A stretch of 64,000 nucleotides of DNA from Ulota crispa (lineage: Eukaryota; Streptophyta; Bryopsida; Orthotrichales; Orthotrichaceae): NCBI GenBank assembly GCA_963920765.1, contig OY987247.1, positions 15,286,471 through 15,350,470 on the forward strand, written 5' to 3'. Below are positions 16,132 to 47,830 of this stretch, one piece after another. The notes below the pieces were generated by a model, which was not told the origin of the DNA, searched no databases, and saw nothing but the letters and a program-made list of their open reading frames with translations. The number at the start of each line of letters is the position of its first letter. Within the stretch, counting starts at the first letter, position 1. The position numbers were made by a program, and so were the translations under genes.

Positions 16132-16426
16132 TACGTTGAGGAGGACATTTTTTGTCCTCTAACCTAGAAAAAACATTTTGTATGACAAGCGTTTGCTCTT
16201 TTTCATTTGATTTTTTTTCAAAAGTGATCATAGACTCATGGTCCATTGTGGAAGGCAAATAACAACTTCACCAAATGTTCTCATATTTTTTGGTAACTCA
16301 AAGTTTGAGAATTTTAGAGTCATAGTGTTAGGTCCCAAGTTGCCCATATTACAATTTTCATGAGGTTAGCATGCACTATTGACTTTTGTAACTTTAAGTA
16401 ACAATACTGTTAGTGTCCCTTGTTAA

Positions 16427-17351
16427 CCCCTAAAGGACCAATTGTCCCCTCAGGGGACTAATGGACCTCGGGCATGTACCTATGACTAAACTAGTTTTAT
16501 GAATTTTTGAAATTTTTGAGGTTGGTGGGAAATTCAAAAGTATGTGCACATCTATTTTTTTCTTCATTCTGACATTTATTGAAGAAGTTATGCATGAATT
16601 TCTGAAAAATGGGGGAGGGTAGGCAATTCGGGCAGCTCAAAAAACTTCTTCAAAAATTGCATTTAAAAAAATGAAAATCCCAAATTGATTTTTTAAAATT
16701 TTTATATATGTGAAAAGCTTTGAATCATTCAATTTTGATTGATGAGTGAGAAGTTTTAGTTTGTGGGCAGGTATGGAATTCCCAAACCTTTGTTCATTTT
16801 GCCCCTTGTTAAATTTGGTGCTTTAATTTTTAATTTTTAATTTTTTTCCATGTTGTAGTAGACTAAGATTTCTTGGTTTTTACCATTTGGATAAAAGTAA
16901 TTCATATTTCTCAACTTCGTATAAATCCTCCAATCTTGCCTAGTGTATATGTAAATTTCATGGCCTTACAATATTGCAATATTTTACAAAGTATGATCCG
17001 CACCTCCAATTCATTTGAAAAGTCTTCCACACATACCTAACTTGGTTTTCAACATGGAAAAAATAAACCTCAACATTGCGTAGAGCAACATTTTTGATAT
17101 TGGAGCAATCAAAAGTTTTTGAAATTTTTGGGCAGCACGGGAAAAAACCTTATTTTGCACTCTGGATTTCAATATCTCACTCCTCTACTTCTAGATTGAG
17201 CTGATTTTTTTTTCACAAGTACCTCCCATAGTCTAGGGCAAGATCCTATGGACAAATTTTCAAAAAAAAAATTCCTACTTTTCTACTCATTCTCCCAAAA
17301 GTGTTAGTTTTTAGTAATTTTCACAGAAAAATGGGCTTGGTCCATAAGGGG
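16427..17351. mobile_element. TTAA-flanked non-autonomous element (piggyBac-like ends), 925 bp
   Basis: Left end CCCCTAAAGGACCAATT follows TTAA at 16423-16426; right end, read inward, CCCCTTATGGACCAAG, preceded outward by TTAA at 17352-17355. Interior shares long similarity with 34125-35041 (for example the GAAGAAGTTATGCATGAATT block). No transposase frame. Confidence 0.78.
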
Positions 17352-17420
17352 TTAAAACATTGTAGAAGCATTGTAGAAGCTACAAGTTGGGCAGGCTGCG
17401 ATCACCCACCCGGCGCTTAA

Positions 17421-17938
17421 CCCCTAACAGCTCAATCGACCATTTCCAAGTCGCTGCCCAATTTTCATGGGTTGCCTAAGATGAAAAAATATTTTTTTTT
17501 TTGTAATAGAAAATCAAATTCTATTTTCCAACCCAACTTGAATCATGTCAATCCAAGTTAAACTCCATCAAGGAGAATTTTTCAAAGACAAACACTTTAA
17601 TATTTTCTAGTGTTGTAAAATTTACTATTTTGGAAAAATAATGATGTTCTCTCCTTTGAAAAGATTGCCTTTTTGAAGTTTATGATAGAATGTTTGTTTT
17701 TAACCAATCATACCAAATTTTAAAATACATGTATAAAATTTGTAATTTTGGTGAATATTAAATGGTAAATGCTTCTATAATCATTAAATAAAAATCCAAC
17801 TAAATGTCTGACTATATGGATAATTACTAAATATCATGATTCTTGTTTTCTCTTTTGAAGCAAACTTCATCAAAGTTATACAAGTATCATTTTATAATAC
17901 ATCTATGTTTTGCCCTTAACACCTTGAGCGTTTAGGGG
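17421..17938. mobile_element. TTAA-flanked non-autonomous element, 518 bp
   Basis: CCCCTAACAGCTCAATC after TTAA at 17417-17420; right end inward CCCCTAAACGCTCAAGG before TTAA at 17939-17942. Interior differs from the ~925-bp group. It starts only 65 bp after the previous element. Confidence 0.75.
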
Positions 17939-17942
17939 TTAA

Positions 17943-18421
17943 GGGTTAATAAACAATTCATGTGATAGTAAATACACCCCTATGATTGAGAGTTCCTTTG
18001 CAAAAAAAAAAGAAAGATAATCCTCAAGGGTGAGCATGGAACATAAAGACCCTACTCTCCCTTGCAAGGGGTCATTAGGGTAAAATTTAAAAATTGCAAG
18101 TGACACTTTCAAGTATTTGTATCCTTGTACACTGAAACCTTTCTTCTTGCAAATTCCCTATTTGCATAATCAACTATAGTTTTTAAATTGCATACTCTTT
18201 ATGTGCATAAAGTGTGTACTGGGACCACCTACAAATTACCACATCTACAGTCTTGTTAGTGTCTTTTTATATTAATTCCCGTTTCAATATACAATAAGTG
18301 CAAAGCACTATAATATTAAATGCCTCTTGATAGAATACAATGCCGCTTTTGATGTCAGAGCTCATTTGGTCTGAAATAGAAGGCAGGCAACCATGACCAA
18401 TTTTTTTAGACGAGCCACTTG
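17943..18421. other. Intergenic DNA, nothing recognised
   Basis: No gene or clear element ends seen between the TTAA element and the first long palindrome. Confidence 0.5.
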
Positions 18422-18423
18422 TA

Positions 18424-19300
18424 CAAGACCCTCTAGAAAGTCTTGCAACTCCTCTATGAAGCCCTTTAAATTCTTTCTTTTATTTTCATTGTAAATGTAT
18501 TCTATCAAACTATCCTATCAAATGTATTGTTTTACAAAACCTTTACGAACATATGAAATCTTAATGCCTAAAAATAGAAACTCTATTTTTGGTGAATTAT
18601 TTTATTTTATTTTCTTAGCTTCACATAAAAATTAATTGAAAAATATATGTGATGGTTTTTCAACCTTTGATTGCACAAATATATAGGAAATGCCATTGTT
18701 CACATCTTTTGTATTACAAAAATGCACACTATGTAGGTAGAGTTTTCCTCTATGTGGCTATAAAGCCTATAATGTATTTTCCAATTTTCTTTCATAAAAA
18801 TTAAAGGCTAAGGAAGTCAAACTCATGTTATAGTAGGCTTCTACATTACTATAGCTTTCTAATGACCTTATTTGACTATGATGTTCAAGTTTTAGCCTAC
18901 TATAACATGAGTTTGATTTGCATAGCCTCAAATTTGTATGAAAGAAAATTAGAAAACACATTATAGCCACACATAGGAAATTTTTACCAATATAGTGTGC
19001 ATCTTTGTAATACAAAAAATGTGAACAATGACATTTCCTATATATTTGTTTTATCAAATGTTGAAAAATCATTACATGTATTTTTCAATTAATTTTATGT
19101 GAAACCAAGAAAATAAAATAAAATAATTCACCAAAAATAGAGTTTTTATTTTTAGGCATTAAAATTTCATATTTTGGTAAAGGTTTTGTAAAACAATACA
19201 TTTGATAGGATAGTTTTGATAGAATACTTTTACAATGGAAATAAAGAAAAAAAATTGCAAGGCTTCATCAAGGAGTTGCAAGAGTTTCTAGAGGGTATTG
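18424..19300. mobile_element. Long palindromic MITE, Tc1/mariner-like (copy 1), 877 bp
   Basis: Both halves are inverse copies of one another with about 400-bp arms: the left GAATTATTTTATTTTATTTT segment pairs with its inverse near 19120, and the left TGTTATAGTAGGC pairs with GCCTACTATAACA across the centre near 18860. Ends CAAGACCCTCTAGAAA and (inward) CAATACCCTCTAGAAA lie next to TA at 18422-18423 and 19301-19302. No coding capacity. Confidence 0.8.
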
Positions 19301-19302
19301 TA

Positions 19303-20187
19303 TAGTACCCAAACCAAATTTGTTGCTGGCCCCTTTTTGGCACTTTTACCATCGATGGTATATGGCAATTTAGAGAATGTAAACAGAACTTTTTTATTTT
19401 GTAATATTTATATTTGATTATAACTAGCAATCCCAATCAAGCATCCCAAAGATCAACCTCAAAAAATCAAAACCCAATTTTTGGTAAATTTTTTTTGTAC
19501 AATAACCAAGGTTTTACAAAAAAAATTGATTGAAAAAGAATTGGTGATGAATTCTTGAGATTTGATTGTACAGATATGTAGGAAACATCCATATGCACAT
19601 TTTCCATGCTAAAAAAGAACCCCTTAAGTAACAAAATTTTGATCTACAAAATATTCAATGCAACCTTTTATATGCCCAAAATTTGTGCAATAGATATATT
19701 TTTGTTTTAACTAGTTTTTCACTAAGTATACAAAATATCATGTTCAAAAGTACAAACTTAGTCACAATGTTCAAGTCAAACAGCAAAATTTGATTACTAT
19801 AAAGAAATATTTACTTTGCAAAATTTGGGCATATAAAAGGTTGCATTGAATATTTTGTAGATCAAAATTTTGTTACTTAAGGGGTTCTTTTTTAGCATGG
19901 AAAACGTGCATATGGATGTTTCCTACATATCCGTACAATCAAATCTCAAAAAGTCATCACCAATTTTTTTCAATCAATTTTTTTGTAAAACCATGGTTAT
20001 TGTACAAAAAAACTTTACCAAAAATTGGGTTTTGATTTTTTGAGGTTGATCTTTGGGAGATTGGAATTGCTAGTTATAATCAAATATAAATATTACAAAA
20101 TAAAAAAAGATTGTATACATTCACTAAATTGCCAAATATGGTAAAAGTGCCAAAAGGGGGCCGGCAACGAATTTGGTCTAAGTACTG
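19303..20187. mobile_element. Long palindromic MITE, Tc1/mariner-like (copy 2), 885 bp
   Basis: Ends TAGTACCCAAACCAAATT and (inward) CAGTACTTAGACCAAATT next to TA at 19301-19302 and 20188-20189. Arms of about 400 bp include TGCTGGCCCCTTTTTGGCAC and the ACATCCATATGCACAT block shared with the other copies. It abuts copy 1 and shares a single TA with it. Confidence 0.82.
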
Positions 20188-20189
20188 TA

Positions 20190-21767
20190 CATTGTGCGAA
20201 TGAAATAAATGACTTATGACGCTTCACCTCTTTGTGTGCCTATCCCTTAAAATAACTCCCCACCATTCCCATGAAGTAAGAGAGGTTTCATTGTACGTTA
20301 AATAGGCCCTCAATAACACTTGGCGTGCTTCCTTTGCTTGGCGCGCCTCATTGTAAACGCGCAACCATCATATGCTAGCCAATGTTTGCTTAATTGTAGC
20401 TTGAACGCTAAAACGTGCAAGATTTGATGAAACGTTAGCGCTCCAAAATCCAAGACAATGGAAACTTGTTGATTGGTTGACACAAGAGGCCCACAATTGA
20501 ATCTAGACACATGTATTCCACAATACACATTTAGCGCTTGCTTGTACTTGGTTGAGTGTAAGGGAGAAGCATTGGAGATTTGAGTGAGCTTGTGATTGTA
20601 AATGCACCCTAGACACCTGCTTTCTAGATCTCCAAGTTGTGTGCAAGGGTGCAGATGCTCTTAGGTTGGATATTGTTTTTTGAACCTAAAAAACACAAAA
20701 TGTGTAGATACATGATAGGATAGTGAAGACATTTTATGAGTCAAAATAGATACTAGAGGGTGTCTTTTATTCAACAAATAGGAAAAAACGATACTTTAGG
20801 ATGGATTGACATGTCAAAAATGAAACATACATAGGGTCCAACAAAACACCCTTGTCACTCAAGTAAGAGACTTATATTTATTTTCATGGAGTAAATCCAT
20901 GAAGCCCCCCTCACTTTTCCAAGCACCCTCCACATGGAATTTTAATGCCCTCAATAATTCTTTTCAACTTCTAATAATTTTGAAGATTTTAATCCCATGG
21001 AAGCAAAGTTAACAAAATCTCTCACAAGTTTAAGATACAATTCACCCGCCGTGTCATATGCATTGGATCAAGGTTAAATTAGACCTCTGGGTGCAAATAA
21101 TTGATGAGATTTTAAAATCTTATCTAATAAGTCACTTAGAGAAAATATGAGCCCTCTACAAGGCCCCTAAGAACCCCTTTCAAGGGGTCTTCTTAATTGT
21201 TTTAATTTGTACTTTGGGACAAAATAAATTCCTTACACCCTACTATGCTTTTGAGTACAACCACGGCTCACTTTATCATGTCCAATTTTCATTGGTGTCA
21301 CAATTACATGTACATATTACCATGGTCCTTTTTCTCTATATTAAAGCCTTTAACATAGTATTTGTGAGGGTAACATTAGTTATGATTGTGTACAATAGTA
21401 GGAGAATAATTAAGAAATTGTAACATAGTACTTGATTGCCATTTTCTATTCATAATTTTAGTGATGTACGTCATACAAGGTAGAGACACTTCACACACGC
21501 TTTTATTGTACCCACTCTAGACACAATAAATGTTAGAGAGACCATTCTTAAGGGCCTTGTGGAGAGTTCATATTTTTTCTAATGTTTCATGTATCCCCTT
21601 CATTGTGAAGGTGCCTTTAGGAATTGAACTATAGCCAAGTGCTACATCCATATAGTTACAAGCAACCCATTTGATTGCCGGGTGAACTGACCCCCTTGTT
21701 GCCCCCCTCCCCCCACACTTGGATGAATGAGTCCAAGGGCTTGATCTATTCACATTCATATTTGTGA
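20190..21767. other. Intergenic DNA, no gene recognised
   Basis: Short open frames only (for example 20310-20528 minus, 21214-21423 plus), without family features. No element ends identified. Confidence 0.5.
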
Positions 21768-22395
21768 AGCAAGGGTGGAAAACTCAGCTTTTTTCACACA
21801 AAAAAGGTGAAAGTAAAACTTGCCTTTATTTTGCAATCGGTCAATTTTATCTCCCTCTATACGATTCTTGAACTAAATCCAGGTCTCAAAGCTCAAATGT
21901 GAACTCAAAATTTCCAAATTCAAATTCTTGATGAATTTTTTTATAAAATCTTACATTTTTAGTCATTTAAAAAATCAGAGCCTTTTTTTTACTTTACAAT
22001 CTCTACAAACACGTTTGTGCAATAGACTAAACCCCCAACCCCATTTATTTAGAGGGCAACAAGGGGTTAGTTCATCGCAAACCCATTTGAGAGCTAAGGT
22101 GAATGACCTCCTCGTTGTCCTTGCTTGTATAAATGGGGCCACAAGTTTGGTCAATGGCTATATGAGTTTTTTGTGGCCAAGGTGAAAAGGTCCCGTTTTT
22201 TCACATTTTCAAATTGTGAGAGTTTGGAAATTTCATTAAGAGATTGGATTTGGGAGTTTTGAGTTCACATTTGGATTCAAAAATCTTGTTTAAATTCACA
22301 AATTGTAACAGAGAACAAAATTAACCAACTTCAAAATAGGAGTAGATTTTTTTTCCCCTCTTGTTTATAAGAAAGTGGGACTATTCCACCCTAGG
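21768..22395. repeat. Inverted pair related to the GGCTCA-type MITEs
   Basis: Left GGGTGGAAAACTCAGC and right TATTCCACCCTAGGGC are inverse partners, as are the inner AAATGTGAACTCAAAA and TTTTGAGTTCACATTT blocks. The same inner block is found in the MITEs at 32794, 42396 and 43274, so this looks like two decayed copies in opposite orientation or one fold-back. Confidence 0.55.
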
Positions 22396-22587
22396 GCATT
22401 TTTTTTGGGTTTGATAGTTTTTGCCAAATTCTAGCTATCCATCCACAATTGGGTAATGAAAAGAGGAACTAGTGCACATTTGTCCAAATTTGTTGTTAGT
22501 TTAGCTCCATTCTGCCAAAAAAAACGCTTCTAAGATGGAGGCACCCATTGCCAACAATGCCTCATATCCAACCTCTGGGAGGCACTA

Positions 22588-22998
22588 AGGTAGAAGCACC
22601 AAAATGTGACACTTACCTCAAATGTGGTAATTTGGTGGGTCTTTTGAGAATGTAATTACATGTGCAAGTTAGGAAGTGGGATTCAAGCAAAATTGTTTTT
22701 GGAATTATCTGAAATTGTATGAATAAATTATGAATTGTTGAAGGTAACTCCCTAGATTGACATATTGTGGACACTAGACCCCTAAAAAAGCGACAACAAA
22801 AAGACCATGTCTTTACAACAAAAAGACCATGTCACACCCAATCATAAACCGCCACCTACACAATTTATGTTCCTTTATGTCAACTTGCATGTCTAATTTG
22901 GATGCATGTGTATCTTGTTTGGGTGCAGCAGTGTTTACTTTTAGGTTTAATTCTGGATTTCGCTAAACGGCTAGTGTTGCATTTGGGTGCTTCTACCT
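22588..22998. mobile_element. TA-flanked MITE with AGGTAGAAGC ends (copy A), 411 bp
   Basis: TA at 22586-22587, left end AGGTAGAAGCACC, right end inward AGGTAGAAGCACCCAAATG, TA at 22999-23000. Its right part matches the left part of the MITE at 43592-43922 in inverse orientation, so they are the same family. Confidence 0.78.
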
Positions 22999-23000
22999 TA

Positions 23001-24047
23001 TTTCTGGTCTCAACCAAGACAATTTTCCAACCAAGCCTTAGAATGGGTTCTTTTCCTTTTTCAAGGTTGAGACCAGCCCCTCATCACCCAAGGGGACCAA
23101 AAGTGTCCTCTCATACTCTAGCAGTCTGTTTTGAAATGCTCTAACTTTTGCATACATTGTCCAAATCCAATAAAATTTGTTGGCAAAGTTGCGCACTCTA
23201 ATCTAGTTTGTACAATAAAATTTTCAAATCAATCTAATACATGTTGAGTTTGTGAAAGCCATTCAAAGTTCACATGGTCATTTGAGTTCACCACTTTGCA
23301 TTGATACAGCTACAATTTTGGAGGCTTGTATCTTTTTTGCCAAATATTTTTTTCAATAAAATTTGTTGGTTTTTGTTCCCCTCAAAGTCTAGTAATTGTG
23401 GTAGAGTTTTCATGTCAATTCAAGCTCCTTTGAACTCCTGGGAGCAATTCAAAGTTCAAAGTCCACACATTTTTACATTATAGCAAACTTTGGTGGCTTG
23501 TAACATCTTCATACAAAGGTTTTTTTCAATAATTTTTGTTGGGAAATTTGCATATACTAGTCTAGTTATTGCTGCTAAAATTTCATATCAATCCAAGAAG
23601 TTATGAGTGAATGAGAAGCATTTTAGTAGAAGGAGGTATAGCCATAGATGTGATTTTTTGCTACTTTTTTCACTATTTTTGGACATTTCAAAACAATTTT
23701 GCACACATAATGTATTGAATGATATTTTCTTTCACCAATGTGTTTGTGTAATGGTTTTGACTCACTTTGCATTTTCAATACTTCTCAATTGAGTAGGTAT
23801 AAATATCGAATCTCACACCAAAATGTGTTTTTAGGAAAATTTTAGCATCTATTTTCAACACAAAAACATTATAATCTTCCAATCTAGGAGGTCAAATGAC
23901 CCCAAATTTGATCCACATCATCCTCAACATGCACACTACAAGATTGTATGGTTGAGTTTTTCATACTCTACTTACATTTAGACTTACACCACTTGAAAAG
24001 TAATGATGTGTTTCGGCCTCTTTGGACCTTAGGCGTTGAGTGGTTAA
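23001..24047. other. Repeat-derived DNA ending in a TTAA-type right terminus
   Basis: Contains degenerate internal repeats (TCAATAAAATTTGTTGG and TCATATCAATCCAAG blocks) and a segment near 23870-23950 similar to the interior of the element at 33089-33977. A right end CTCAACGCCTAAGGTCC (inward) adjoins TTAA at 24044-24047. No left end was found, so the element is truncated or too decayed to delimit. Confidence 0.4.
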
Positions 24048-25957: not shown

Positions 25958-25988
<31 letters not shown>

Positions 25989-26295
25989 CAAAACAGGCCT
26001 TGAAACCACCCTTTAAGAAATGAAAAATGGACTATTACAAAAAGTAGCGAAGGAAAAAAAGAAAAAAAGTTGTGTACTTAGGTTTGAAACCCCCTTGTGT
26101 GCACATTCACTGATTCACCCATACAATCATTTATTACAAGAGATTTTGGCATGGTCGTTTACTTGGACAATATATCTGGTAAACTATGTTTGTCACATAT
26201 GTACTTTTTCATCTTTTTCATTTTTTTCCTTTATTTGAGCGACTTTGTAGTTTGCACTCTAGAATGTATGCCCAATAAGGTAAAAGGTTGTAATT
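24048..26295. other. Intergenic DNA, no gene recognised
   Basis: Contains two ~41-bp direct repeats near 24680-24765 (shared block TTTGTCAACTTTGTCAA) and the AAAAC microsatellite below. Open frames lack family features. Confidence 0.5.
25961..25995. repeat. (AAAAC)n microsatellite
   Basis: About seven perfect AAAAC units following a poly-A tract. Confidence 0.95.
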
Positions 26296-27477
26296 TGGTG
26301 CAGGCTCTAAAATGGTGCACCTTTCCAATTGTACAGTCGGGTTCATTAATTTTACTAACTACAATTTTGAGATATTCAGTTTTTTTAATGAAACATGGAG
26401 TACAATTGGTACATTTTTGTCCAAAAATTTATCATTGCATTCTCATGTAATCCCAATCAAGCATACCAAATTTCAATTTCAGAAAAGTGAAACTTCATTT
26501 GTGGTGAAATCTTAAAGCAAAATTCCATGGTTTTACATGGTATTTTATTAAAAACAATTGGTAATGAATTTTTGAGATTTGATTTCATGGGTATGAAGGA
26601 AACATCCATATGCACATCTTCCATGCTAAAAAAATATCCCCTTAAGTAACAAAAATTTGATCAATACAAGATTCAATGAAACTTGTGATAAGCCCAAATC
26701 TTGAATTTTTATTTTATTTCATGAAAATCAAATTTTGTTGTTTGGCTCAAATATTGTGACTAAGTTTGTATCTTTGAACATGATATCTTGTTTAGTTGGT
26801 GAAAAGCTAGTTAATAAATAAAGATATGTATTTTACAAGATTTGAGCTTATCACAAGTTTCATTGAATCTTGTATTGATCAAATTTTTGTTACTTAAGGG
26901 GATATTTTTTAGCATGGAAGATGTGCATATGGATGTTTCCTTCATACCCATGAAATCAAATCTCAAAAATTCATTACCAATTGTTTTTATTAAAATACCA
27001 TGTAAAACCATGGAATTCTGCTTTAAGATTTCACCACAAATGAAGTTTTGCTTTTCTGAAATTGAAATTTGGTATGCTTGATTGGGATTACGTGAGAATG
27101 CAATGATAAATTTTTGGACAAAAATGTACCAATTGTACTCCACGTTTTTCATTAAAAAACTAAATACCTCAAAATTGCAGTTTATAAGATTAATGGACCC
27201 GACTGTGCTTAGTTTGTACATGATTTTTTCATAGCCCTTCAGCAATGTACAAGACATGTACAATTGAGGAGGTGAACTAATTTGGAGACTTAAGGCCTTT
27301 CCACTTCAAAATTTCATAACTAATTTCCCAAAGTTCCAAAAAGTATGAAACAACTTGGATAAGATAACAGTTTACTCTTGTCTTTCAAGAAAAAAATATT
27401 GAAAAATATTTCAAGAAGTTTCATCACCCCAAAATTCAGTTTCAGCCCTTGCATGTTCCGTTCATGAGCTTCCTACC
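26296..27477. mobile_element. TA-type MITE split by a palindromic element
   Basis: The flanks of the palindrome at 26334-27205 match the MITE at 38386-38687: the left GGCTCTAAAATGGTGCACC and the right part from TTTTTTCATAGCCC through CTTCAAAATTTCATAACTAA to TTCCTACCT at 27469-27477. The left terminal bases are decayed. A TTAA element adjoins its right end. Confidence 0.6.
26334..27205. mobile_element. Long palindromic MITE, Tc1/mariner-like (copy 3), 872 bp
   Basis: Ends CAGTCGGGTTCATTAAT and (inward) CAGTCGGGTCCATTAAT; TA at 26332-26333 and TG at 27206-27207. Arms of about 400 bp carry the ACATCCATATGCACAT block and the CCCCTTAAGTAACAAAA block of copy 2; the centre is near 26770. The 150-codon open frame on the minus strand (27263-26811) is a by-product. 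Confidence 0.8.
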
Positions 27478-27481
27478 TTAA

Positions 27482-28127
27482 CCCCACAGTGACATTGCAT
27501 TTCCAGGGCTTCTAGGAATTTTCTCTAGTTTGAACTAAAAGCCAATATTTTGATAAGTTGTATTAGTTCTTTTTGAATTGTAACCATATAAAATCAAACT
27601 AGACATGTTAGAGATCACATTAGAAAAGAAAACACAACAACATCTCCTATGGATTGAAAGATTAAAATGTTTGATCATGAGCATGTTAAAATTGTGAAAG
27701 TGATTTGAAGTCTTTCAATCTTCTTTTCACATACCAAATCAAAAAAGTTGGTCACCAAAAAAATATGAGGTTAAAGAGCCTAACATGTGTAATCCCAATT
27801 AGTTTATGACTTCTCAAAATCTACTTTACAATTTTTTTAAATGATTTTCTAATGTGATTTTTTCTTGAAGTTCTAATGTATTTGAGGCTCATTCCCAAGA
27901 GCCCTCAACACTACATAAAGTCAAGATTGCAATGAACACCTGTGCACAAAATCTTGAATAGAAAAATCATAATTAATCATTTGCAAAATCAAATTATTGA
28001 AGCTAGAACTAAACTTTAGAATGAATTTTTCAAAAATATAATATATTAAAAACAGTAATTTAGTTGGATTTAATGTAACCTCAAAAACTGGTCGAGGACA
28101 GTTTGTGTCCCCAATGACGCTTTGGAG
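27482..28127. mobile_element. TTAA-flanked non-autonomous element, 646 bp
   Basis: Left end CCCCACAGTGACATTGC after TTAA at 27478-27481; right end inward CTCCAAAGCGTCATTGG before TTAA at 28128-28131. The interior (ACATGTTAGAGAT..., AAGAAAACACAACAA...) matches the element at 47150-47793 in the same orientation. Confidence 0.8.
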
Positions 28128-28303: not shown

Positions 28304-29177
28304 TAGTACTGCGCCTTGAACCTATATTCATTCACCTTGATTTACCATTCTACAACCTTACCGTTTTATAGAATACAATTAGTATTTTAGTATCTTGTAT
28401 CCCTAGTCTTTCATTCTTAAGCAATCCCAATTAAGCATACAAAATTTTGAGTTTCAAAAAAATCAAAATCCTATTTTTGGTGGATTATTAGATATAAAAA
28501 TAACAATTTTACTTGATGATTGATAAAAAAAATTGGTGATGAACTTTTTGGATTTGATTGCATGGATACGTAAAAAACATCCACATGCACATGTTTCCTT
28601 ATAAAATAAATCTCCAAAAAGCTTCAATATTCCTTATATAGAGATTTTAATGTTAGGCTGATCATGAACAAATCTAGTAAAATAGATATCTCTATTTTTT
28701 GTTTAGATTTATTTATTTGGCTCATACATTATGATTGAGTTTGTACTTTCAAGCATGACGATATGTTTATTTTGCCATAAGCTAATTATAAAATAGAGAT
28801 ATCAATTTTACTTGGTTTGATTATGATTAACCTAACATTAAAATCTCTATAGAAGGAATTTTGAAGCTTCTTGGAAATTTTTGTTATAAGGAAAGATATG
28901 CACATGGATGTTTCTATGTATCCATGTAATCAAATTTGAAAAATTCATCACCAGTATTTTTCAACCCATCAATAAGTAAAATTGTTACTTTTATTTCAAA
29001 TAATTCACCAAAAATAGGATTTTGGTCTTTTGAAACTCAAATTTTGATATGCTTAATTGGGATTGCATAAGAACAAAATACTAGAGATACAAGATACTAA
29101 AATACTAGTTATATAAAACAATAAGGTTTGAATGGGAAAACAAGGAGAATGAATATAGGTTAAAGGGTGCAGTACTT
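28304..29177. mobile_element. Long palindromic MITE, Tc1/mariner-like (copy 4), 874 bp
   Basis: Inverted arms of about 400 bp: TAGTACTGCGCC on the left with (inward) AAGTACTGCACCC on the right; ACCTATATTCATTC and GAATGAATATAGGT; AGTATTTTAGTATCTTGTAT and its inverse. The TA on the right is kept, the left dinucleotide is GA. Same central block as copies 1-3. Confidence 0.75.
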
Positions 29178-29179
29178 TA

Positions 29180-30749: not shown

Positions 30750-31495
30750 CCCTGAGTGCCGCAGTGACGGGATTCTATTGTTGGGGATTTTAGACGCCCA
30801 TTTGAGGAACTGGATCTACTTTTTTGATCTTATTAAACTACAATTATGAAAGCATTCAAGTTGTCCATGCTAATGGAGTAATTGCAAGGAAAGGCAGATG
30901 TTGTACAAGAGCTGCAAGAGATTTGATTGGGTGAAACACCATACGAGGCAAGGTGGTAAGCCACGTTTTACTGCAACCGGTCAATATCCCTTGCAAGCTT
31001 CCTTGTGTGTGCTTTGTGGTAACCGGAAAGTTGTTGGCAAGTGTTCAAGCATGTTCTAGACCCTTATTATGGCAACCGTCACCAATTGTGCCAGTCATTG
31101 TTTTCCGTGCATTAGCAATTTGAAGCCCTAAAACTTGACATAAAAAGAAGTGCAATCTTCAATAATTTACAAGGGTGTGCATTCACATCTTATCTTGCTG
31201 CTCACAAATTTTGAGATGAATCTGGGGCTTATAGAATTTTGTAAAAATCATCAAATAGCAACTACCTACCAAAAAATGAGATTTAGTCATCACATGTTGT
31301 TTGATCAAATGTTATAATCTCCCATCTCCTGCGGTAAATTGTTCTCAAAATTTGAAAGCCATTTTCTAAGTAGGTGTCCAACTATTTTCAATGGTCATTT
31401 TTTGTGAATCATATGATTGACCGAGATACAATGCATCAAAGTTGTTGGTCTCCAAAAACCCTGATTTTGGTGAAAACGGCCTGGGCGCTCAGGGG
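30750..31495. mobile_element. TTAA-flanked non-autonomous element, 746 bp
   Basis: Left end CCCTGAGTGCCGCAG after TTAA at 30746-30749; right end inward CCCCTGAGCGCCCAGG before TTAA at 31496-31499. The GAGCGCC terminal subtype is shared with the short element at 44324-44565. Confidence 0.78.
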
Positions 31496-33088: not shown

Positions 33089-33977
33089 CCACTAAAGGAC
33101 CATACCTTCTTTTTTAGAAACATAGCAATTTTGGGCACGTACCCATGATTGGAGCTTTTCATATTTTAGGCTGAAACTTTAATAAAATGTGGGGACAAGG
33201 TTTATCTTTCATATGTACTAAATTTCATGACATTTAGAGTTATGAGTAAAAAGTTATGGCCTAATATGTTGTTTTTTACATTTGTCAAGCAGCCTAGGCA
33301 GATTTTTAAAAATCACTTTTTTCAAATGTAAATTTTTAAAATTGGTTTAGGAGATTTATGTGAATGTAGGAAGCTTTGAATCATTCCATTTTGATCAACG
33401 AGATGAAAGTTATGAGGATTTTTTGTTTGCGGGCAGTTATGGATTTTCTACTTTAAAATAAACTTTGAAGTCCTTTATATTACTCAATTTAAATTAATTT
33501 GGAAAAAAAAAAAACCAAAGGATGTAGATTGTTTATTACAACATTACAACCATGATTGGGATTGGCATTTTTCATCTCCATAATTAAATTCTTAACAATT
33601 TAGTGGTTTGAATCATTCTTTCCATATGTTATACAATTCCAAATGATTTGAAACTTTTTTGACATGTACTTTACTTAAGTGGAATAAGGAATTTAGAAAA
33701 GCACCACCCACATGACCTTTTTTCCTTAGGAATATCACCTTTTGAAGGGTAGCTGCCGATTTTTCACAAAATGTTTTTGAATATTCAAACCATTCTAACT
33801 TCCAATCCAGAGGACAAAAAACATTGAAATTTTTTTCACATCTTCTAAAACTATTCTTCTACAAGACCTTACAACCACATATGCATAGAAATATTTTTGT
33901 TTTCAAATTTGATTGATGCTCTGAAAATGGCAGTTTTGGAGAGTTTTTGCTGGAAACTTTGCTTGGACCTTTAGGGG
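33089..33977. mobile_element. TTAA-type element with ATAA duplication, 889 bp
   Basis: Left end CCACTAAAGGACCATAC after ATAA at 33085-33088; right end inward CCCCTAAAGGTCCAAGC before ATAA at 33978-33981. Interior shares blocks with the two ~920-bp copies (GAGATGAAAGTTATGAGGA, TTTTGTTTGC). Confidence 0.7.
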
Positions 33978-34124: not shown

Positions 34125-35041
34125 CCCCTAATGGACCTGTTTGTCCGTTCTGGGGACAAATGGGTTTTGGGCATGTACTTATGGTTTAGGTACTTTGTGT
34201 AATTTTTTGAAACTATTATTGTAGGTGGGTAATTCAAAGATTCATGTGGGCATCTAATTTTTTCTTCATTTTAATATTTGACAAAGAAGTTATGCATGAA
34301 TTTATGAAAATTTGGGGAGGAGTGCCCATCTAGAAAGTCCAAAAACTTTTTTAAAAATTACATTTTTTGAATTTAGTTTTTTGAAATTGGTTCTCTAGAT
34401 TTATTTTATACATGAAAAGCTTTTAATCATTCAATTTCACTTAATGAGATGAAAGTTATGAGGAGTTTTTGTTTGCAAGCAATTATGAATTCTACTCTAA
34501 AATAAATTTTGAAGTTCTTTAATTTACTCTATCTTCTATATTTTGGAAAAAAAATAAACCAAAGGAAGTAGATTGTTTATCACAACATTATAACCGTTGG
34601 GATTTGCATTTTTCATGTCAATAATTAAATTCTTAACAATTTTGTGTTTTGACTCATTCTCTACTTTTTACTTACTATTTTTTCCCCATATGTTGTATAG
34701 TTCCAATTGATTTGAGAACTCTCCCACATATACCTAACTTGATCTCCTACGTGGAAAAATAAAAGCTCAACTTTGGGTAGAGCAATTTTTTATGTGAAAG
34801 AGAGGTAAAAGGCTTTTGAAATTTAATGGCAGTAAGGAAAAAAAAAATTTCCCTTCAATTCATATGTAGATACCTCCCTTCTCTCAATCTAGAATGACCT
34901 GATTTTTTCCCCTTAAGTACCTCTTCTAGTCTACGGCAAAATCCTACGGTTGGATTCTCAAAAAAAAAAAAAATCTACCTTCTTACTCATCTCCTAGAAG
35001 TGGCAGTTTTCAGTGATTTTGGCAGAAAAAGGAATTGGTCC
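34125..35041. mobile_element. TTAA-flanked element with decayed right end, about 917 bp
   Basis: Left end CCCCTAATGGACCTGTT after TTAA at 34121-34124. Sequence colinear with 16427-17351 throughout; the right end GAATTGGTCCTTAAAAA has lost the GGGG and TTAA, so the boundary is approximate. Confidence 0.65.
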
Positions 35042-35460: not shown

Positions 35461-35776
35461 AGGTAGGAGCACCCATAAATGTCAAACTAAGGGTTTTGAA
35501 CATGATGACTATTAATAACCAACTAGCAAATTATAGGATCTTATTAGGAATAGGAAAAAAATGAGTTTGCACATTTGAATGTATTATTTGGATATTGTGA
35601 GAATAAGTTGTGAATTTTTAAAGAGCAAACTGCCATTGTTGTACCCATAACCACTTTTAAGATTTCATGTTCACATGTTGTACATCCTTGTCATTATATC
35701 TATTCGTTTCCACAGATTTTTCAAGATTTCAGAGATGACAGCTATGGGACACTGACACTTATGAGTGCTCCTGCCT
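35461..35776. mobile_element. TA-flanked MITE with AGGTAGGAGC ends (copy C), 316 bp
   Basis: TA at 35459-35460, left AGGTAGGAGCACCCATAA, right inward AGGCAGGAGCACTCATAA, TA at 35777-35778. Almost the same sequence in inverse orientation at 46165-46478. Confidence 0.85.
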
Positions 35777-36178: not shown

Positions 36179-36395
36179 TCGTCGTCGTCGTCGTCGTCGC
36201 CCCTCGTCGTCGTCGTCGCCCCTCGTCGTCTCTATCGTCGCCGTCGTCTCTTTCGTCGTCTCTCTCGCCTTGCTTCCCCCTATATGAACCTCGCAGGCTC
36301 CTTTCGTTTCTGCTTACTTAAAAAACATCGCCTTCGCCATCGCCCTCGCCATTGCCATCGCCATTGCTCTCGCCATCGCCATCGCATCAATCTTG
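36179..36395. repeat. GTC triplet and GCCATC hexamer repeats in the 5'UTR
   Basis: Runs of CGT/GTC (36179-36265) and of CGCCAT/CGCCTT units (36330-36390) lie in the presumed first, non-coding exon. A short upstream ATG frame (36284 onward) crosses the second run and stops at 36403. Confidence 0.8.
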
Positions 36396-36403
36396 CTTAC
36401 TAG

Positions 36404-37650
36404 GTATGCTTGCCGACTTCGAAATCACTATAGAAATGGAGATTGCACATGCAACGTATTTTGCAGGCGGCTTAATTCTAAACATTCTAGACTTTTTTGC
36501 TAAGATCTTTGAGAATGTTTAGCTGGCGTGCTTAGTAGGTATGCTTGTCGACTTTGAATTCACTATAGAAATGGCGAGTACGCATGCACAGCGTGTTTGC
36601 TTTCAAGGCGGCTTAACTCTAAACGTTTTGGACTTTTTTTGGTAGATCTTTGAGAATGTTTAGCTGGCGTGCTTAGTAGGTATGCTTGTCGACTTTGAAT
36701 TCACTATAGAAATGGCGAGTGCGCATGCACAGCGTGTTTTGCTTTCAAGGCTTAACTCTAAACGTTTTGGACTTTTTTTGGTAGATCTTTGAGAATGTTT
36801 AGCTGGTATGTTTAGGCGATGGATCGGATGCTGGTGGATTAGGAAAGGTCTTTGGCATGGAGAAGAGATTTGAGGCTGTTTTGCTTTCAAGGCGGCTTAA
36901 TTCGAAACGTTTTGGACTTTTCTTTGAAGATATCTGAGAACTTTTAGCTGGTGTGTTTAGGCAATGAAATGGATGCTGGTGTGTTTAGGCAATGAAATGG
37001 ATGCTGGTGTGTTTAGGCGGTGAAATGGATGCTGGTGTAATTGGAAAGCTTTTTTTGGCTTGGAGATAAGATTTGAGGCTATTTCGCTTTCAAGGCGGCT
37101 TCATTCTAAACGTTTTGGAAACTTTTTGGAAGATCTTTGAAAATTTGTAGCTGGTGTGTTAAGACGATGGATCGGATGCTGGTGTAATTAGAAAGGTCTT
37201 TGGCTTGGAGATAAGACTTGAGGCCATTTTGCTTTCAAGGCGACTTAATTCTAAACGTTTTGGACATGTTTTATAAGGTCTTTGAGAACTTTTATCTGGT
37301 GTACGATGGATCGGATGCTAGTCTAATTGGAAAGGCTTTTGGCTTGGAGATGAGATCTGAGGCCATTTTGCTTTCAAGGCGGCTTAATTTTAAACACTTT
37401 GGACTTTTTTTGGAAGATCTTTGAGATAATTTTTATCTGGTGTACGATGGATCAGATGCTGGTGTAATTGGAAAGGCTTTTGGCTTGGAGATAAGATTAA
37501 GACCATTTTGCTTTCAAGACGACTTAATTCTAAACGTTTTGGAAGTTTTTGTAGATCTTTGAGAATTTATAGCTGGTTTGTGTAGGCGATGGATCGGATG
37601 CCGGTGTAATAGGAAAAGCCTATGGCTTGGATATGAGATTTGAGACTTTT
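36404..37650. repeat. About 140-bp tandem repeat array in the 5'UTR intron
   Basis: Eight units are marked by the AGATCTTTGAGAA block at 36503, 36644, 36783, 36928, 37131, 37276, 37415 and 37553, spaced 141, 139, 145, 203, 145, 139 and 138 bp. Other shared blocks are TTGCTTTCAAGGCGGCTTAA, TCTAAACGTTTTGGAC and GGCGATGGATCGGATGCTGG. The 203-bp unit is longer because a ~31-bp block (GTGTTTAGGCAATGAAATGG) is itself repeated three times. The array fills nearly all of the proposed intron 36404-37673. Confidence 0.85.
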
Positions 37651-37724
37651 TTGTGGATGTTATTGTTATACAGGGAATATTGAAGTTAGACATTGGTACT
37701 GGAGAGTTGAGACATCTTTCGAAA

Positions 37725-41013: not shown

Positions 41014-41438
41014 AAGCCCCAAACATAAAATTTAGCCTTCGAACTTCTCACCCTCAAAGGATCTCCGCTTGCTAATGAATAGTTTTCATTCCCTTACACG
41101 CGCAAAGTTTGAGACACTCGTGAGTTTGCAGAAATTTTTGCGAGAAAATTTCAGGGTTTGAGGATGCAGGTGCATGAGCCCCGCAAAGCCATGAACGTGA
41201 GTTTGTGAAGTTCACTCCTAATGTGATCACGTGAGGAGTGAATTTTAGAAACTCACTTTCGTGGTTGCTAGGCTCATTCACTTGCGTCCTCAAACCCCAA
41301 AACTTCCTTCGCATAAATTTCCGCAAACTCACGGGTGTCTTAGACTTTGCGCGTGTGAGGGGATGAAAACAATTCACTAGTGAGTGGAGATCTTGTGAGG
41401 TGAGAAGTTCAAAGGCCAGATTTTATGTTTGAAACCCT
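41014..41438. mobile_element. Fold-back Tourist/Harbinger-like MITE, about 425 bp
   Basis: Arms of about 200 bp: CCCAAACATAAAATTTAGCC pairs with the inverse at 41415-41435, ACACGCGCAAAGT pairs with ACTTTGCGCGTGT, and CTCCTAATGTGATCACGTG is at the centre. TAA lies at both ends (41012-41014 region and 41439-41442), consistent with a 3-bp TAA target. A relative forms the right half of 53489-54458. Confidence 0.7.
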
Positions 41439-42395
41439 CTAATGAGAGAGAAGTTCCAAAAAACAATAGAAAGTTGAGGCAAATGACATGTCAAAGTAAT
41501 TAAAAATTGAAAAAATTGAAAAAAATTTAGCTAAATACTTGGAACTGGAAGGCCTCTAATTATAATACACAAGTATGCTTTGCACTTGCTTTGTTGCACG
41601 TCTCTCTTTTCATGTAAATTTTCACCCTTCCTTCATCTACCTTTTCTTTTCCCTCTCCTCAAATTTCCTTTTGTGCCTTTTCTTCTCCCTGCTCTCAAAG
41701 TGAATTTTATACTTTAGGTGACTAAGAGACACACCCAATGCTTTTTAATAAAAAATTTCAAATTTATAAAAAAAATTTAAGGCAATCACAACGACTTTTC
41801 ACCATTCGAGTGGTTGCTTTTTCTTCTCCACAACGACTTTTCACCATTCGAGTGGTTGCTTTTTCTTCTCCCTTTCCTCTCTGTAATAGAACTTGTGCTA
41901 TTGATAGAGAATTATATGATGAGTGATTGAATCATAATATCATGAGTAGGATGGACAACCCAATCTATATTATAAAGAATGGGTTCTTTGTCTCATGTGA
42001 TATAGTGAGGTGTCTATCTTATGGTATAATGTGTTAGCCCTTGTATCTTCACCCATAAGCAAATTTAGCACCTAGGCTATTGCATTCTTGCCACACTCAT
42101 GCATATGATCCCAGGACTCCATATTGGCATTCATGTGTATAATCAGCGTGTACAAAGTAATTTAACATTTGCTTTCTTTTTTCTTCATTTTGAAATCAAA
42201 TTATGAGTTGATTATAGTGAACGGACGAGAGCTCAATTAGGAACACCTGACAAATAAACTGGAAGGTAGACTAGCAGAAGGATAGTTGGTTCAATCTAAC
42301 AACTAAGCTTAAGCCTCAGCTACAACATAAAGACAATTTGGATTGAACCCACGTCTAGAACATGGCTTACAGCAACCCATTGAACTAAATGTGCC
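41439..42395. other. Intergenic DNA, no gene recognised
   Basis: Only the short duplication at 41789-41872 stands out. Confidence 0.5.
41789..41872. repeat. 42-bp perfect tandem duplication
   Basis: ACAACGACTTTTCACCATTC... through ...TTTTCTTCTCC occurs twice in direct succession, indicating a recent duplication. Confidence 0.9.
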
Positions 42396-42680
42396 GGCTC
42401 AGAGTACTGCACAAACGTCAGTATTGGGCCCTAGTGGAAAAGCTCAAGTTTTTTTTCCAAACAAGGGTAATAGCAATGATTTGTCCCTATTTTATTTTAT
42501 TTTTTAATTGTATTCTTTTTGAGGTTCTAGACAAAAGCAAGATCTCTAAATTCAAATATGAATTCTATATTCCCAAATTCAATCTCTTGATGAAAAATAT
42601 TTAAATTCTTACAATTTTTGGTGGGTGAAAAAAAAATGGTTTTTGAGCTTGGCCGCCCTACATCAACATTTGTGTAGGGT
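42396..42680. mobile_element. MITE with GGCTCA...CTGCAC ends, decayed right end
   Basis: Left GGCTCAGAGTACTGCAC, inner TGGAAAAGCTCAAG block pairing with TTTTTGAGCTTGG, and right CTACATCAACATTTGTGTAG. Same family as 32794-33080 and 43274-43576. Confidence 0.6.
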
Positions 42681-43273
42681 TGTCACATAGGACCACTTGT
42701 CTGTCTGCTCATTTGTTTGCCCAAAGTGCCCTATTAAACTCATGTATGTCCAATGTAGTAAACTCATAGTTGACTTCAAAAAATGATAAAAATCAGAAGC
42801 TTTGTACATGGTGGTGACACTCATTGTTGCCAACATAGAATCAAAACGTGGATTTAAAGCCATATCACGTAATAAAAATTAAAAAAAAATCATCTCATTC
42901 TTCTTTTTTTGGGTCAAAAATCTTAGAAAACCCTAAAAGGTAACATTTAGCAAACACATCTGTCTATGTTGTTTGAAGTGTCCTTCTGCTTGTCTTGGCA
43001 TCCAAATCTTGCTTGAAGTGACAACCATGCATATGTGTAGTAAGAGCCGGTTTCCATTAGGGGGTTGGAGGAGTCTAGGCCTAGACCTCTAGCCTCCGGC
43101 TCTCCAAAATTTGACTAACACTCCTAGACCTTCCAAACCCTAGACTAGAGCTTCCTTCCAAAAATGTACTCCGCGTCAAAATTTCAAAGTTTTTCTTTTC
43201 TTTACCTGTGATCAACCTGAATGTTTGGTCTAGTCTCCAATGGAAATTGGCCCCAAACTGAGCCGAAGGTGCC

Positions 43274-43576
43274 GGCTCATATTACTGCACATACATCAAT
43301 GAGGAGCTAGGGTGGAAAAGCACTCAATAATTTTATTTTCACCCGCCTGAAAATTTGAGAGTTTAAATATTTACCATCTATAGATTGAATTTGAGAACTT
43401 TGAATTCATATTTGGATTTAGAGACCTTGCTTTAGTCATGAAACCTTGTGTCGGTTACAAATGAATAACTTGCAATAAAATAGGGGACAAAATTTATTAC
43501 TATTACCCTAGTTGGGAAAAACACTTGAGCTTTTCAACCCTGGCCCCACATCGACATATGTGTAGTAATATCAGCC
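43274..43576. mobile_element. MITE with GGCTCA...CTGCAC ends, 303 bp
   Basis: Left GGCTCATATTACTGCACAT pairs with the inverse ATGTGTAGTAATATCAGCC on the right; inner TGGAAAAGCACTCAA pairs with CTTGAGCTTTTCAACC. It ends 14 bp before the TA of the next MITE. Confidence 0.75.
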
Positions 43577-43591
43577 CCTTGGGCTCCCATA

Positions 43592-43922
43592 AGGTAGGAG
43601 CACACAATTGCAACACTAGCCATTCTCTGACATCTAAAATTAAACCTAAAGTAAATAGATATGCACCCAAACAAGACACAAACGCACCCAAACAAGACAC
43701 AAATGTTGTTGTTGTTTTTTCAGGGATCTAGTGACTACAATAGATAAGTCTAGGAAATTGTCTTCAACAATTTATAATTTATTCATATGATCTCAAAAAA
43801 TTCCAAAAACAATTCTCTTTACATCTATATCCATTTCCTAACAAGCCCATGCCATCAGATTCTCAGAAGACCCTCCCAATTACCACATCTGAGATAAGTG
43901 TTATATTTGGGTGCTTCTACCT
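43592..43922. mobile_element. TA-flanked MITE with AGGTAGGAGC ends (copy B), 331 bp
   Basis: TA at 43590-43591, left AGGTAGGAGCACACAATTG, right inward AGGTAGAAGCACCCAAATA, TA at 43923-43924. Contains a 17-bp direct repeat (GCACCCAAACAAGACAC) near 43660-43700. Inverse relative of 22588-22998. Confidence 0.82.
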
Positions 43923-43924
43923 TA

Positions 43925-44300
43925 TCCAGCAAGAAGTGAGCGAGAGGAAGGTGAGGGAGCGCCTGCAGGATTCGGGCGGCATGAACAACGTGGCTGGTCA
44001 CGCCCCACTGGCCCCACTACACCCGGAAAGGTGACCGTCTTCGGCGCCGTCGACCCCGCGCGCGTCCTCGCTCGCGTGGAGCTCGTCAACAAGTGCTCCG
44101 CCTTCTGGAACCTCACCCTGGACTACAGCCCGAACTGCCCGCCGCTACCACGCCACACTAGCCGCAGCCAACGCCGCCAACGGCAGACGCCACCGCCGCG
44201 GCTGCCAAAGCTGAATTCCATATCCAAGCCAAACTGGTACTGTAGCGCATTCCGAACCAGAAATAGTGGTGCAACTCCTCCAACAGCGTGACTGTACTTT
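43925..44300 (+). pseudogene. HMA-domain (HIPP-like) gene fragment, broken
   Basis: Two overlapping frames together match the C-terminal two-thirds of a plant heavy-metal-associated domain. The first frame reads SERKVRERLQDSGGMNNV; after a frame change the second reads GKVTVFGAVDPARVLARV and then NKCSAFWN, corresponding to the family's KVTVxGxVDPxxVLxxV...AEFW. The metal-binding CxxC segment is missing and there is at least one frameshift, so it is not functional. It is markedly GC-rich against AT-rich neighbours and is bordered by a MITE on the left (43592-43922) and a TTAA element on the right (44324). HIPP proteins bind metals or act as chaperones; that activity is not expected here. Confidence 0.6.
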
Positions 44301-44323
44301 CGTGACTGCTATCCTGCCGTTAA

Positions 44324-44565
44324 CCCTTGAGCGCCCCAGAGAAAGTATACTTCTTCTGGAAGATCTGAAAATAGGTACCTAAGTCATGGTAGTATGATGT
44401 ACTAGAATTAGGGTAGGGTGGTACAAGAGTGACATGGAGTGCAGTACCCGGGTTCCTAGTGATTATGATTGGTTTCACATGAGTTATTTTATTTTTGTAG
44501 AAACCACATGCTTGTGAGTGTGAGTAGGTTTGCCTAAACTAGATTTTGAGCTAGGCGCTTAGGGG
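44324..44565. mobile_element. Short TTAA-flanked element, 242 bp
   Basis: Left CCCTTGAGCGCCCCAG after TTAA at 44320-44323; right inward CCCCTAAGCGCCTAGC before TTAA at 44566-44569. Confidence 0.78.
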
Positions 44566-44889
44566 TTAAGGACAAGGGAGGCCGATTCGGCTCTTATTGA
44601 GTTGGATTCTTTCGCAGAATCGGCAGGCCGTGACCCCCTGCCGATTATAAAACGTATTTGTGCGATTCAAAATCACTCTCATACCAAATTCTACCAAAAT
44701 TACTCACAAACCGTATATAGTATCATATATCATAGAAATTGCCAAATACGGCCTCTCCTGCCCTTAACGCGAGAGAGTGCATAGGTATCTATCGATTCTA
44801 GAAATTAGCTCGCCCTCCGGGCTTGCTAATTTCCAAAATCAGCAGATACCTGCCCGCTCTCTAGTACAGAGCGCCTGCCTACGGCCTGT

Positions 44890-45080
44890 ATTGGGGCTAG
44901 CAACGCCATCTGCAAGGCTTGCTCGCATGGCCTTCAGCGGAGCCCAATAACATCATGTGCAGGGCTTGCTTGCTTGGCTTTCAACAGGCCCTGACAACAT
45001 CATGTGCAGGGCTTGCTTGGCTTTCAATAGGGCCCAGCAACATCATGTGTAGAGTTTGTGTAATTGTAGCCTTCAGCAAG
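44890..45080. repeat. Minisatellite of about 45-50 bp units
   Basis: Four imperfect units sharing CAACATCATGTGCAGGGCTT and GCTTGGCTTTCAACAGGCCC blocks. GC-richer than its surroundings. Confidence 0.8.
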
Positions 45081-46162
45081 GGGAATGCTATATCGTAAGC
45101 CGGGATCCGTGAGCCGGGATTTGTGAGCCTAGATTTTTTGTCAAAATACTCAATTTCACTTATAACCATATACATGAGGCCTTATAATTGTACATTTTAA
45201 ATTTTTATTTTTTAAAAACTTGCTTTTTTTAAAAGTCTTTTCATTGATGTTGAGCTCAAAATTGATTCCTGCTCACCAAATCTTGGCTCACCGCTCTTAG
45301 GCTCACCATTTTACGCTCATGAAATAGAGTCGTCCGGCCCATTAAAGCGAGCAATAGAATAGCTTATGTGATGCAATGCACATAGGCAATAGGAACCCAA
45401 ATATAGTTGTTAAGTTTTTCAACATGATTTTCACATTGACATGTTGAAGATAGGGGAGTTTTACCTTTTTGCACCTTTTGGACCTTGGTCACCACCATCC
45501 AGCCTTTGACCAATAGTATATTGAGCAGTTTCAAGGACTTGCTAAGGCTGCTGAAACTATCAAGTGACGTTGATTATGTTTTTTTTATCCATCAAGGTGC
45601 CACTCTGCATGCCAAATACATTGAAGTATAGTTACAATTCAAAACTCGAGACCCAACACAAGAGTGCTATTGCAAGGCCAAATTACCAATTGGACAAAGG
45701 ATGGTCAAAGATTGTTTTGCATGCCACCTTATAGCAACTCCATTACAGTGATATTCTAGCAGGAAGACTTGCACTCTAGACTTCTATCTACCACATCACT
45801 ATTATGGATTTCTGCAATCTCCATGAAGCTACAATATTTTGTTCACACCATTAAGAAGGTATTTTCAGACCATGTTAAGATCACGTAACAACTCAAATCC
45901 ATTGTTGTTATCACAAATGCGGTGTGCAAGAGGTGCAATGCAAGTGTCTCAAACAAAGCACAGACACTACTCCAAGTGGCCTAAAATGTGGTTTGCATTC
46001 AATTTGAAGTGAAAGCTTTGTACATTGCAAACTCCTATTAAGGTACATGAGCCCATCCTCGACTCACTGCCAGGCTACAACCGCTAAAGGGCCTCCAACT
46101 TCTTTTTTTGTTTTTTTCATTTTACTAAGGTAGAGCGACCAGCACCCAACAATGCAAGCATG
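45081..46162. other. Intergenic DNA, no gene recognised
   Basis: Somewhat gene-like composition at 45430-46030, but no open frame or family motif that I can support. Confidence 0.4.
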
Positions 46163-46164
46163 TA

Positions 46165-46478
46165 AGGTAGGAGCATCCATAAGCGTCAGTGTCCCCATGA
46201 CTGTCACTTCCAAAATCTTGAAAAATCTATAGAAGTGAATAGATGTAATGACAAGGATGTACAACATGTGAATATGAAATCTTAAAAATGGTTATGGGTG
46301 CAATGGTAGTTTTCTCTTTAAAAAATCACAACTTATTCTCACAGTTTCCAAACAATACATTCAAAAGTGCAAACTCATTTTTTTTTTTTTACTAATAGGA
46401 TCCTATAATTTGCTAGTTGTCTATTAATAGTCATCATGTTCAAAACCCTTAGTTTGATGTTTATGGGTGCTCCTACCT
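46165..46478. mobile_element. TA-flanked MITE with AGGTAGGAGC ends (copy D), 314 bp
   Basis: TA at 46163-46164, left AGGTAGGAGCATCCATAAG, right inward AGGTAGGAGCACCCATAAA, TA at 46479-46480. Inverse of copy C (35461-35776). Confidence 0.85.
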
Positions 46479-46906
46479 TAAGAGAAAAATAAACAAACTT
46501 GAATAAAATCGTCAACATGTGGACATTCATCCATAAATTGTACTAATATTAATGAACTTCATCCAAAATTTGACAAACTTGATTTTGGCTTGGGAAAGGT
46601 TTTAGCAATTTCATCCATTTTTCCACCATACTTTTTCAGTGTTACGGTAGTTAGTGACCAATTGACCATTTGAGGTAAGATCTAGGCAAAGTTTTGCCAG
46701 AAATAAAAAACCCTGCTAAACGCACGCAAATTGCCCTTTTTACTGACACTCCCTGCGAGTTGCCAGTATATAGCCATTTTGTTTAGATACTTAGCCAGAG
46801 CTGGTGACCAGTTGTATTAGCACTAATTAGGGTTGCATCCCTATTAGATTGATCTCATCCATGGGGGCTCAATTAGGTCTAGCATTACGTACTTAAATAG
46901 GCTTTA

Positions 46907-47830
46907 AGGTAGCAACACCCATAATCATCACTTCTAAAATCTTGAAAAAATTGTGGAAGGCAATAGATGTAAATTACAAGAATGTACATGTGAATATGAA
47001 ACCTTACTATTGGTATTAGGTGCAATTGCAAGCGGCTCTTTAAAGATTCACAACTTATTCTCACAATATCCAAATAATACTTTTGAAAACGCAAATTCAT
47101 CATTTTTCTCTTGCTAGTTGGATCCTATAATTTGCTAGATGTTTATTAACTCCTAAATGCCCAAGGCCTATTTGAGCTTCTTGGAATTTTCATGAAATTG
47201 CACAATCAATCAACCTTTTAGAAATTTTCATCAACTTTTTTTCAAATGTAACTGTGCAAATTTAAACTAAACATGTTAGAGATTACATGGAAAAAGAAAA
47301 CACAACAATATCACTTATAGTTTGAAAGATTATAATGTTTGAACATGAGGGTGTTAAAACTGCAAAATTGACTTGGAGTTTTCTAATCCTCCTTTCACAT
47401 GTCAAATCTAAAAAGTTGGTCATCAAAAAAATATGAGGTTTAAGGTCATTACATGTTTAACCTCAACCAACTTACGGCTTTCAAAATCTACTCTTGTATT
47501 TTTTTTAAATGGATTTCTAATGCAGATTTTTTTCTAGTCTCTAGTGTATTTGAGGCTCATTTTCAAGATCTTCCAACACTAGAAAACTCAAGTTTGCAGT
47601 GGACACCCTTGTACAAAATCTTGAGTTAAAAAATCATCAACACTTATTTTCAAAATCAGGTTTTTGATGTTGGAAATAGACTTCAAAAAAACTTGTATTG
47701 AAAAAAAAACAATTAAAATAGTGATTTGATAAAGTTTTATTCTACTTCAAAGTTTTGTGAAGACCCAAATCTAGTTGCTTGGGCATTTAGGGGTTAATAA
47801 CCATCATGTTCAAAACCCTTAATGTTATTG
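46907..47830. mobile_element. TA-type MITE (copy E) interrupted by a TTAA element
   Basis: Starts AGGTAGCAACACCCATAA after TA at 46905-46906 and runs colinear with copy D to GATGTTTATTAA, then resumes at 47794 with TTAATAACCATCATGTTCAAA. The right end is truncated after about 47825. Confidence 0.75.
47150..47793. mobile_element. TTAA-flanked element nested in a MITE, 644 bp
   Basis: Left CTCCTAAATGCCCAAGG after TTAA at 47146-47149; right inward CCCCTAAATGCCCAAGC before TTAA at 47794-47797. Copy D shows the uninterrupted site with a single TTAA (TCTATTAATAGTC). Interior matches 27482-28127. Confidence 0.88.

Follow-up and report, generated by a model that had tools for sequence, protein, structure and literature searches.

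We analyzed a 64,000-nucleotide stretch of the Ulota crispa genome (Bryopsida; Orthotrichaceae; assembly GCA_963920765.1, contig OY987247.1, positions 15,286,471 to 15,350,470, forward strand), here called the window, and found a set of TTAA-flanked elements with piggyBac-like ends. As judged from their sequence, they are likely non-autonomous, piggyBac-type DNA transposons of a plant and resemble miniature inverted-repeat transposable elements (MITEs). The initial annotation of this DNA had offered the same interpretation; we find it partly supported, namely for the target duplication, the ends, and the presence of several groups.

Six elements had been reported with TTAA on both sides and a seventh (33089-33977) with ATAA on both sides, and all seven were found as reported (Table 1). 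Thus, an identical 4-bp flank borders 7/7 of the listed two-ended elements (TTAA in six, ATAA in one), although these seven had been picked partly for their flanks. TTAA is also common, with 414 occurrences in the window, which speaks for TTAA and C-rich motifs having come together by chance. We counted convergent ends with the same 4-mer outside, a C[CT][ACT][CT] start, and a match at 9 or more of 14 bases in ungapped comparison: TTAA gave 8 such pairs and no other 4-mer of the remaining 255 gave more than 4 (ATCG), while 200 first-order Markov simulations gave a mean of 0.26 and a maximum of 2. Five of the 8 TTAA pairs are listed elements; the others are a cross-pair (15899 with 17351), a shifted pairing of 17421, and a chance-like pair at 57060-58091. 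Element 30750-31495 is not among them because its left end lacks one base, which defeats the ungapped match. Of 828 TTAA half-sites, 10 are directly followed by CCCC, compared with 1 of 1584 for AATT and 0 to 4 for six other A/T 4-mers. A looser scan, for any similar 14-base inverted ends next to any 4-mer, showed no preference for TTAA (AATT, ATAT, TGCA, and CATG scored higher), which we attribute to the long fold-back repeats of the window. Chance is almost certainly not the explanation, since it is contradicted by the pair statistics as well as by two empty sites and the end-shuffle controls described below.

For 10 elements, we joined the two flanking sequences and aligned them to the whole window. 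Those of 47150-47793 matched across the junction at two places (Table 1), each with about 80% identity and each containing TTAA once; therefore, 47150-47793 was inserted, and its site gained the element plus one TTAA (4 bp duplicated). The ATAA/ATAA flanks of 33089-33977 also favor a 4-bp over a 2- or 3-bp duplication, because duplication of TA or TAA is not expected to give the same altered first base on both flanks. A TTAA-specific 4-bp duplication, as the initial annotation proposed, is therefore supported by the flanks, by the two empty sites of one element, and by the pair statistics.

These data bear on whether the elements could be MITEs of PIF/Harbinger or Tc1/mariner, with targets of 3 or 2 bp that fall within TTAA by coincidence. 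A decayed PIF/Harbinger-like transposase frame does lie at about 1.8-2.6 kb (1800-2610, + strand, with open reading frames [ORFs] facing it at 3477-4363, − strand), as judged by eye; four frames scanned in this region had no Pfam hit. The net 4-bp duplication at 47150-47793 and the full 4-mer on both sides of all seven complete elements argue against such an origin, and neither these flanks nor the empty sites show the 3-bp TWA duplication of PIF/Harbinger or the TA-only duplication of Tc1/mariner. Ends sought around the Harbinger-like remnant included none starting with CCC, only A/T-rich or weak pairs (three with TWA, matching at 11-12 of 14 bases, and eight with TTAA, matching at 8-9 of 14). 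We consider this origin highly improbable.

The ends have a consensus near CCCCTAARNGNCCAAG, which is common to five groups of elements with unrelated interiors; the inverted ends are about 13-16 bp long and imperfect in most elements. Among 15 ends, conserved positions include C1 (15), A7 and G10 (14 each), C4 (13), and T5, C12, and C13 (12 each). Ten ends begin with CCCC, two with CCCT, two with CTCC, and one with CCAC; the earlier description of the ends as CCCC/CCCT thus holds for the 12 that begin with CCC but not for the other three. CCC likewise opens the ends of piggyBac from Trichoplusia ni. A weight matrix built from the 15 ends scored them at 13.0-30.1 bits (these being its training set, the scores are no test) and exceeded 9 bits at 13 further places of the window, of which 24043 (20.8) and 15899 (18.0) scored highest; 20 Markov-simulated windows had 2-10 such places each. 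The pattern TTAACCCCTAARNGNCCAAG had no match in viral_contigs and two in genome_contigs (on Rhodobacteraceae and Nitrososphaeria contigs), which we take as chance.

The inverted ends of piggyBac elements are described as 12-19 bp long, with the hallmark terminus CC[C/T]T (PMC2872659). As a yardstick we used 19 coral piggyBac and piggyBac-MITE ends tabulated in that study of two corals (PMC2872659, Tables 1 and 2). Over positions 5-13, the window ends had a mean best identity to the coral ends of 6.53 of 9 bases, whereas TTAA half-sites drawn at random from the window gave 3.88 (maximum, 4.93 in 2000 draws). Shuffling each end, with its composition kept, gave 4.02, and applying one column permutation to all ends, which keeps their relatedness, also gave 4.02 (maximum, 6.07); 0/5000 reached 6.53 in either control. 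Scored by a matrix made from the nine autonomous coral ends, 12/15 window ends lay above the background's 99th percentile over positions 1-13. The closest single match is between the right ends of 16427-17351 and AmiPB2, a coral element carrying a 543-amino-acid (aa) frame (PMC2872659, Table 2): 12 of 13 bases are alike. The proposal that the ends are piggyBac-like is supported by a coral-end match above all 5000 shuffles. Kolobok elements also target TTAA, but their termini are given as 5'-RR..YY-3' (PMC9587614), the opposite of the C found first in 15/15 ends here, and we regard a Kolobok origin as very improbable.

Several observations weigh against a piggyBac assignment. The fourth base is C in 13/15 ends and T in only 2/15, whereas the piggyBac hallmark has T, although coral MITE family III also begins with CCCC (PMC2872659). 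With the nine-end coral matrix restricted to positions 5-13, only 5/15 ends exceeded the 99th percentile, and the end comparison relies on a single paper on two corals. A junction-spanning match was found within the window for only 1/10 tested elements (47150-47793); for 27482, a related repeat aligns with the left flank but stops at the junction and is uninformative, and the other eight had no such match in the window. Finally, a tblastn search of the window with the transposase of T. ni piggyBac gave a best E value of 1.3, although such a search has little power to detect a remote relative. The longest stop-free frame inside the two-ended elements is 81 codons, too short for a transposase. 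The long candidate 57397-60335 (2939 bp; ends of 14.0 and 13.8 bits) was rejected as an autonomous copy because its stop-free frames do not exceed 124 aa and because the tblastn search matched it over just 15 residues, at chance level (E, 9.9).

Because no piggyBac transposase was seen in the window, the piggyBac assignment is drawn from the ends and the target. The lack of a transposase there and the C at position four would also suit another superfamily that duplicates TTAA, such as Sola3, which uses TTAA, or an undescribed plant superfamily whose ends converged on CCC. In addition, 2739 Sola elements, subgroup not given, are tabulated for the fern Ceratopteris richardii (PMC6890710). However, the position-specific match to piggyBac ends extends beyond the first four bases, and we consider such an origin unlikely, if still worth keeping in mind. 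We retain piggyBac as the preferred assignment.

By their interiors, the elements form five groups (A to E; Table 1), unrelated to one another between groups but with similar ends, which agrees with the earlier proposal of several non-autonomous groups with only their ends in common. In group A, 16427-17351 and 34125-35041 are homologous near both ends (about 73% over 335 and 350 bp), and 33089-33977 and 34125-35041 share 81% identity over 320 bp. The 34125 element had been described as having lost its right end; its left end is as described, but the right is not wholly lost, as a subterminal part homologous to 16427-17351 is recognizable and only the outermost bases have decayed. A further element, 57574-58475, absent from the initial annotation, is probably a fourth member of this group in reverse orientation, to judge from its alignments: it matches 33089-33977 at 67.6% over 145 bp and shows 50-55% identity to the other three group A elements. 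Its flanks read TGAA or GAAC on the left, depending on register, and TTAG on the right. The two group B elements share 76% identity over 512 bp and, in an end-to-end alignment of 644 positions, 68.6%. We read the copies as old because identity in full end-to-end alignments is only 50-65% within group A and 69% within group B. The group C, D, and E elements had no internal relative within the window at an E value of 0.001.

Table 1. Elements of the window and empty sites of one insertion (window positions)
Feature	Position	Strand	Length (bp)	Flanks and remarks
Group A element	16427-17351	+	925	TTAA on either side
Group A element	33089-33977	+	889	ATAA on either side
Group A element	34125-about 35049	+		TTAA and end preserved on the left; outermost bases decayed on the right
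Probable fourth group A element	57574-58475	−	902	14-bp perfect inverted ends; flanks not TTAA
Group B element	27482-28127	+	646	TTAA on either side
Group B element	47150-47793	+	644	TTAA on either side; sits in a repeat with two other copies
Group C element	17421-17938	.	518	TTAA on either side
Group D element	30750-31495	.	746	TTAA on either side; left end 1 base shorter than right
Group E element	44324-44565	.	242	TTAA on either side
Probable short element	about 15899-16132	.		Left TTAA present, right TTAA lost
Paralogous empty site for 47150-47793	46204-46451	+		Single TTAA
Second paralogous empty site for 47150-47793	35488-35733	−		Single TTAA

Two isolated ends had also been noted. The one at 15888/15895 probably belongs to the short element at about 15899-16132; for the one near 24044, no partner end was found. 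The latter (24043 in our scan) matches both group B elements over 23-29 bp, at a position inside them that is collinear; on sequence likeness, 23644-24043 is perhaps a remote group B remnant. At 7812-7882, a 71-bp segment with TTAA on either side has the ends CCATTTAGGG and CTCTTTAGGG; this pair is possibly a very small relative.

The window also contains other repeats and genes. Long fold-back (near-palindromic) repeats lie at 26391-27147, 18507-19216, 19444-20058, and 28360-29127, with arms that are 84-98% complementary. A second palindromic family is found at 14986-15314, 49323-49634, and 49875-50202, and also at 15779-15880; its arms are about 98-127 nucleotides long and 88-91% complementary within copies. 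A Pfam scan of ten window frames gave hits for two, a lipase class 3 (PF01764) and a plastocyanin-like domain (PF02298, a plant-specific family and thus in keeping with a plant host), plus weaker relatives; the other eight had no hit, and Rfam gave no match in the window. Directly upstream of the plastocyanin-like gene is a tandem array (36394-37644) with units of about 139-141 bp.

The window elements share features with known piggyBac systems. Like the window elements, the coral CMITEs and AmiPB elements show TTAA duplication, 13-14 bp ends that mostly start with CCC, and several MITE families; the coral CMITEs differ in being about 100 bp long with conserved interiors and divergent ends (PMC2872659), whereas the elements described here are 242-925 bp long with similar ends and unrelated interiors. 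T. ni piggyBac likewise duplicates TTAA and has short inverted ends (14 bp). In contrast to the gene-less window elements, it is 2472 bp long and encodes a 594-aa transposase; its subterminal repeats are 19 bp long (PMC10140906).

The initial annotation held that no well-described piggyBac family is known from vascular plants. This is fair if taken as "poorly described," but the superfamily has been recorded in land plants: it is among those listed for all groups, land plants included (PMC4438587, Table 2), and 1230 "PiggyBac" elements totaling 122,417 bp are tabulated for C. richardii (PMC6890710, Table 2). The latter figures correspond to about 100 bp per element, and the likeness to our elements is one of label, as that table gives no ends or target sites. 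Elsewhere, piggyBac is called occasional in plants, for example in red algae (PMC12732532), or is named for plants without detail in the passages available (PMC2874221, PMC10140906, PMC10813416, and the plant review PMC10794571). The accessible portions of PMC5199201, PMC9033116, and PMC9860276 hold nothing further on plant piggyBac, and that of PMC10619864 has only the word "piggybacking." Among the matches listed from the open-access literature, which leaves most subscription journals outside, no title or abstract start indicated a plant piggyBac family with ends and target sites. Since plant piggyBac is already listed but no described family appeared among these matches, the elements of U. 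crispa probably belong to an established kind, as a plant branch that is underdescribed, rather than to a new one.

We propose that a piggyBac-type transposase encoded elsewhere recognized a short end motif near CCCCTAARNGNCCAAG on elements with unrelated interiors. One enzyme family may have served all groups, cutting the elements out and pasting them into TTAA sites, with TTAA duplicated; the copies would be old. On balance, we lean toward a land-plant host with an endogenous piggyBac system, in which a plant-encoded transposase, past or present, would have mobilized five or more unrelated groups of MITEs and scattered TTAA insertions through a gene-containing region. Such a system would represent a plant lineage, old and diverse, within a superfamily that has been characterized mainly in animals, fungi, and protists. 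If a transposase confirms it, plants would have on record a native piggyBac lineage whose ends and target are defined, which would help to trace the history of the superfamily and its possible horizontal spread, and "PiggyBac" labels in plant repeat tables could be checked against real ends. It would also raise the question of whether precise excision, on which use of the insect element as a tool depends, has been retained by piggyBac elements of plants.

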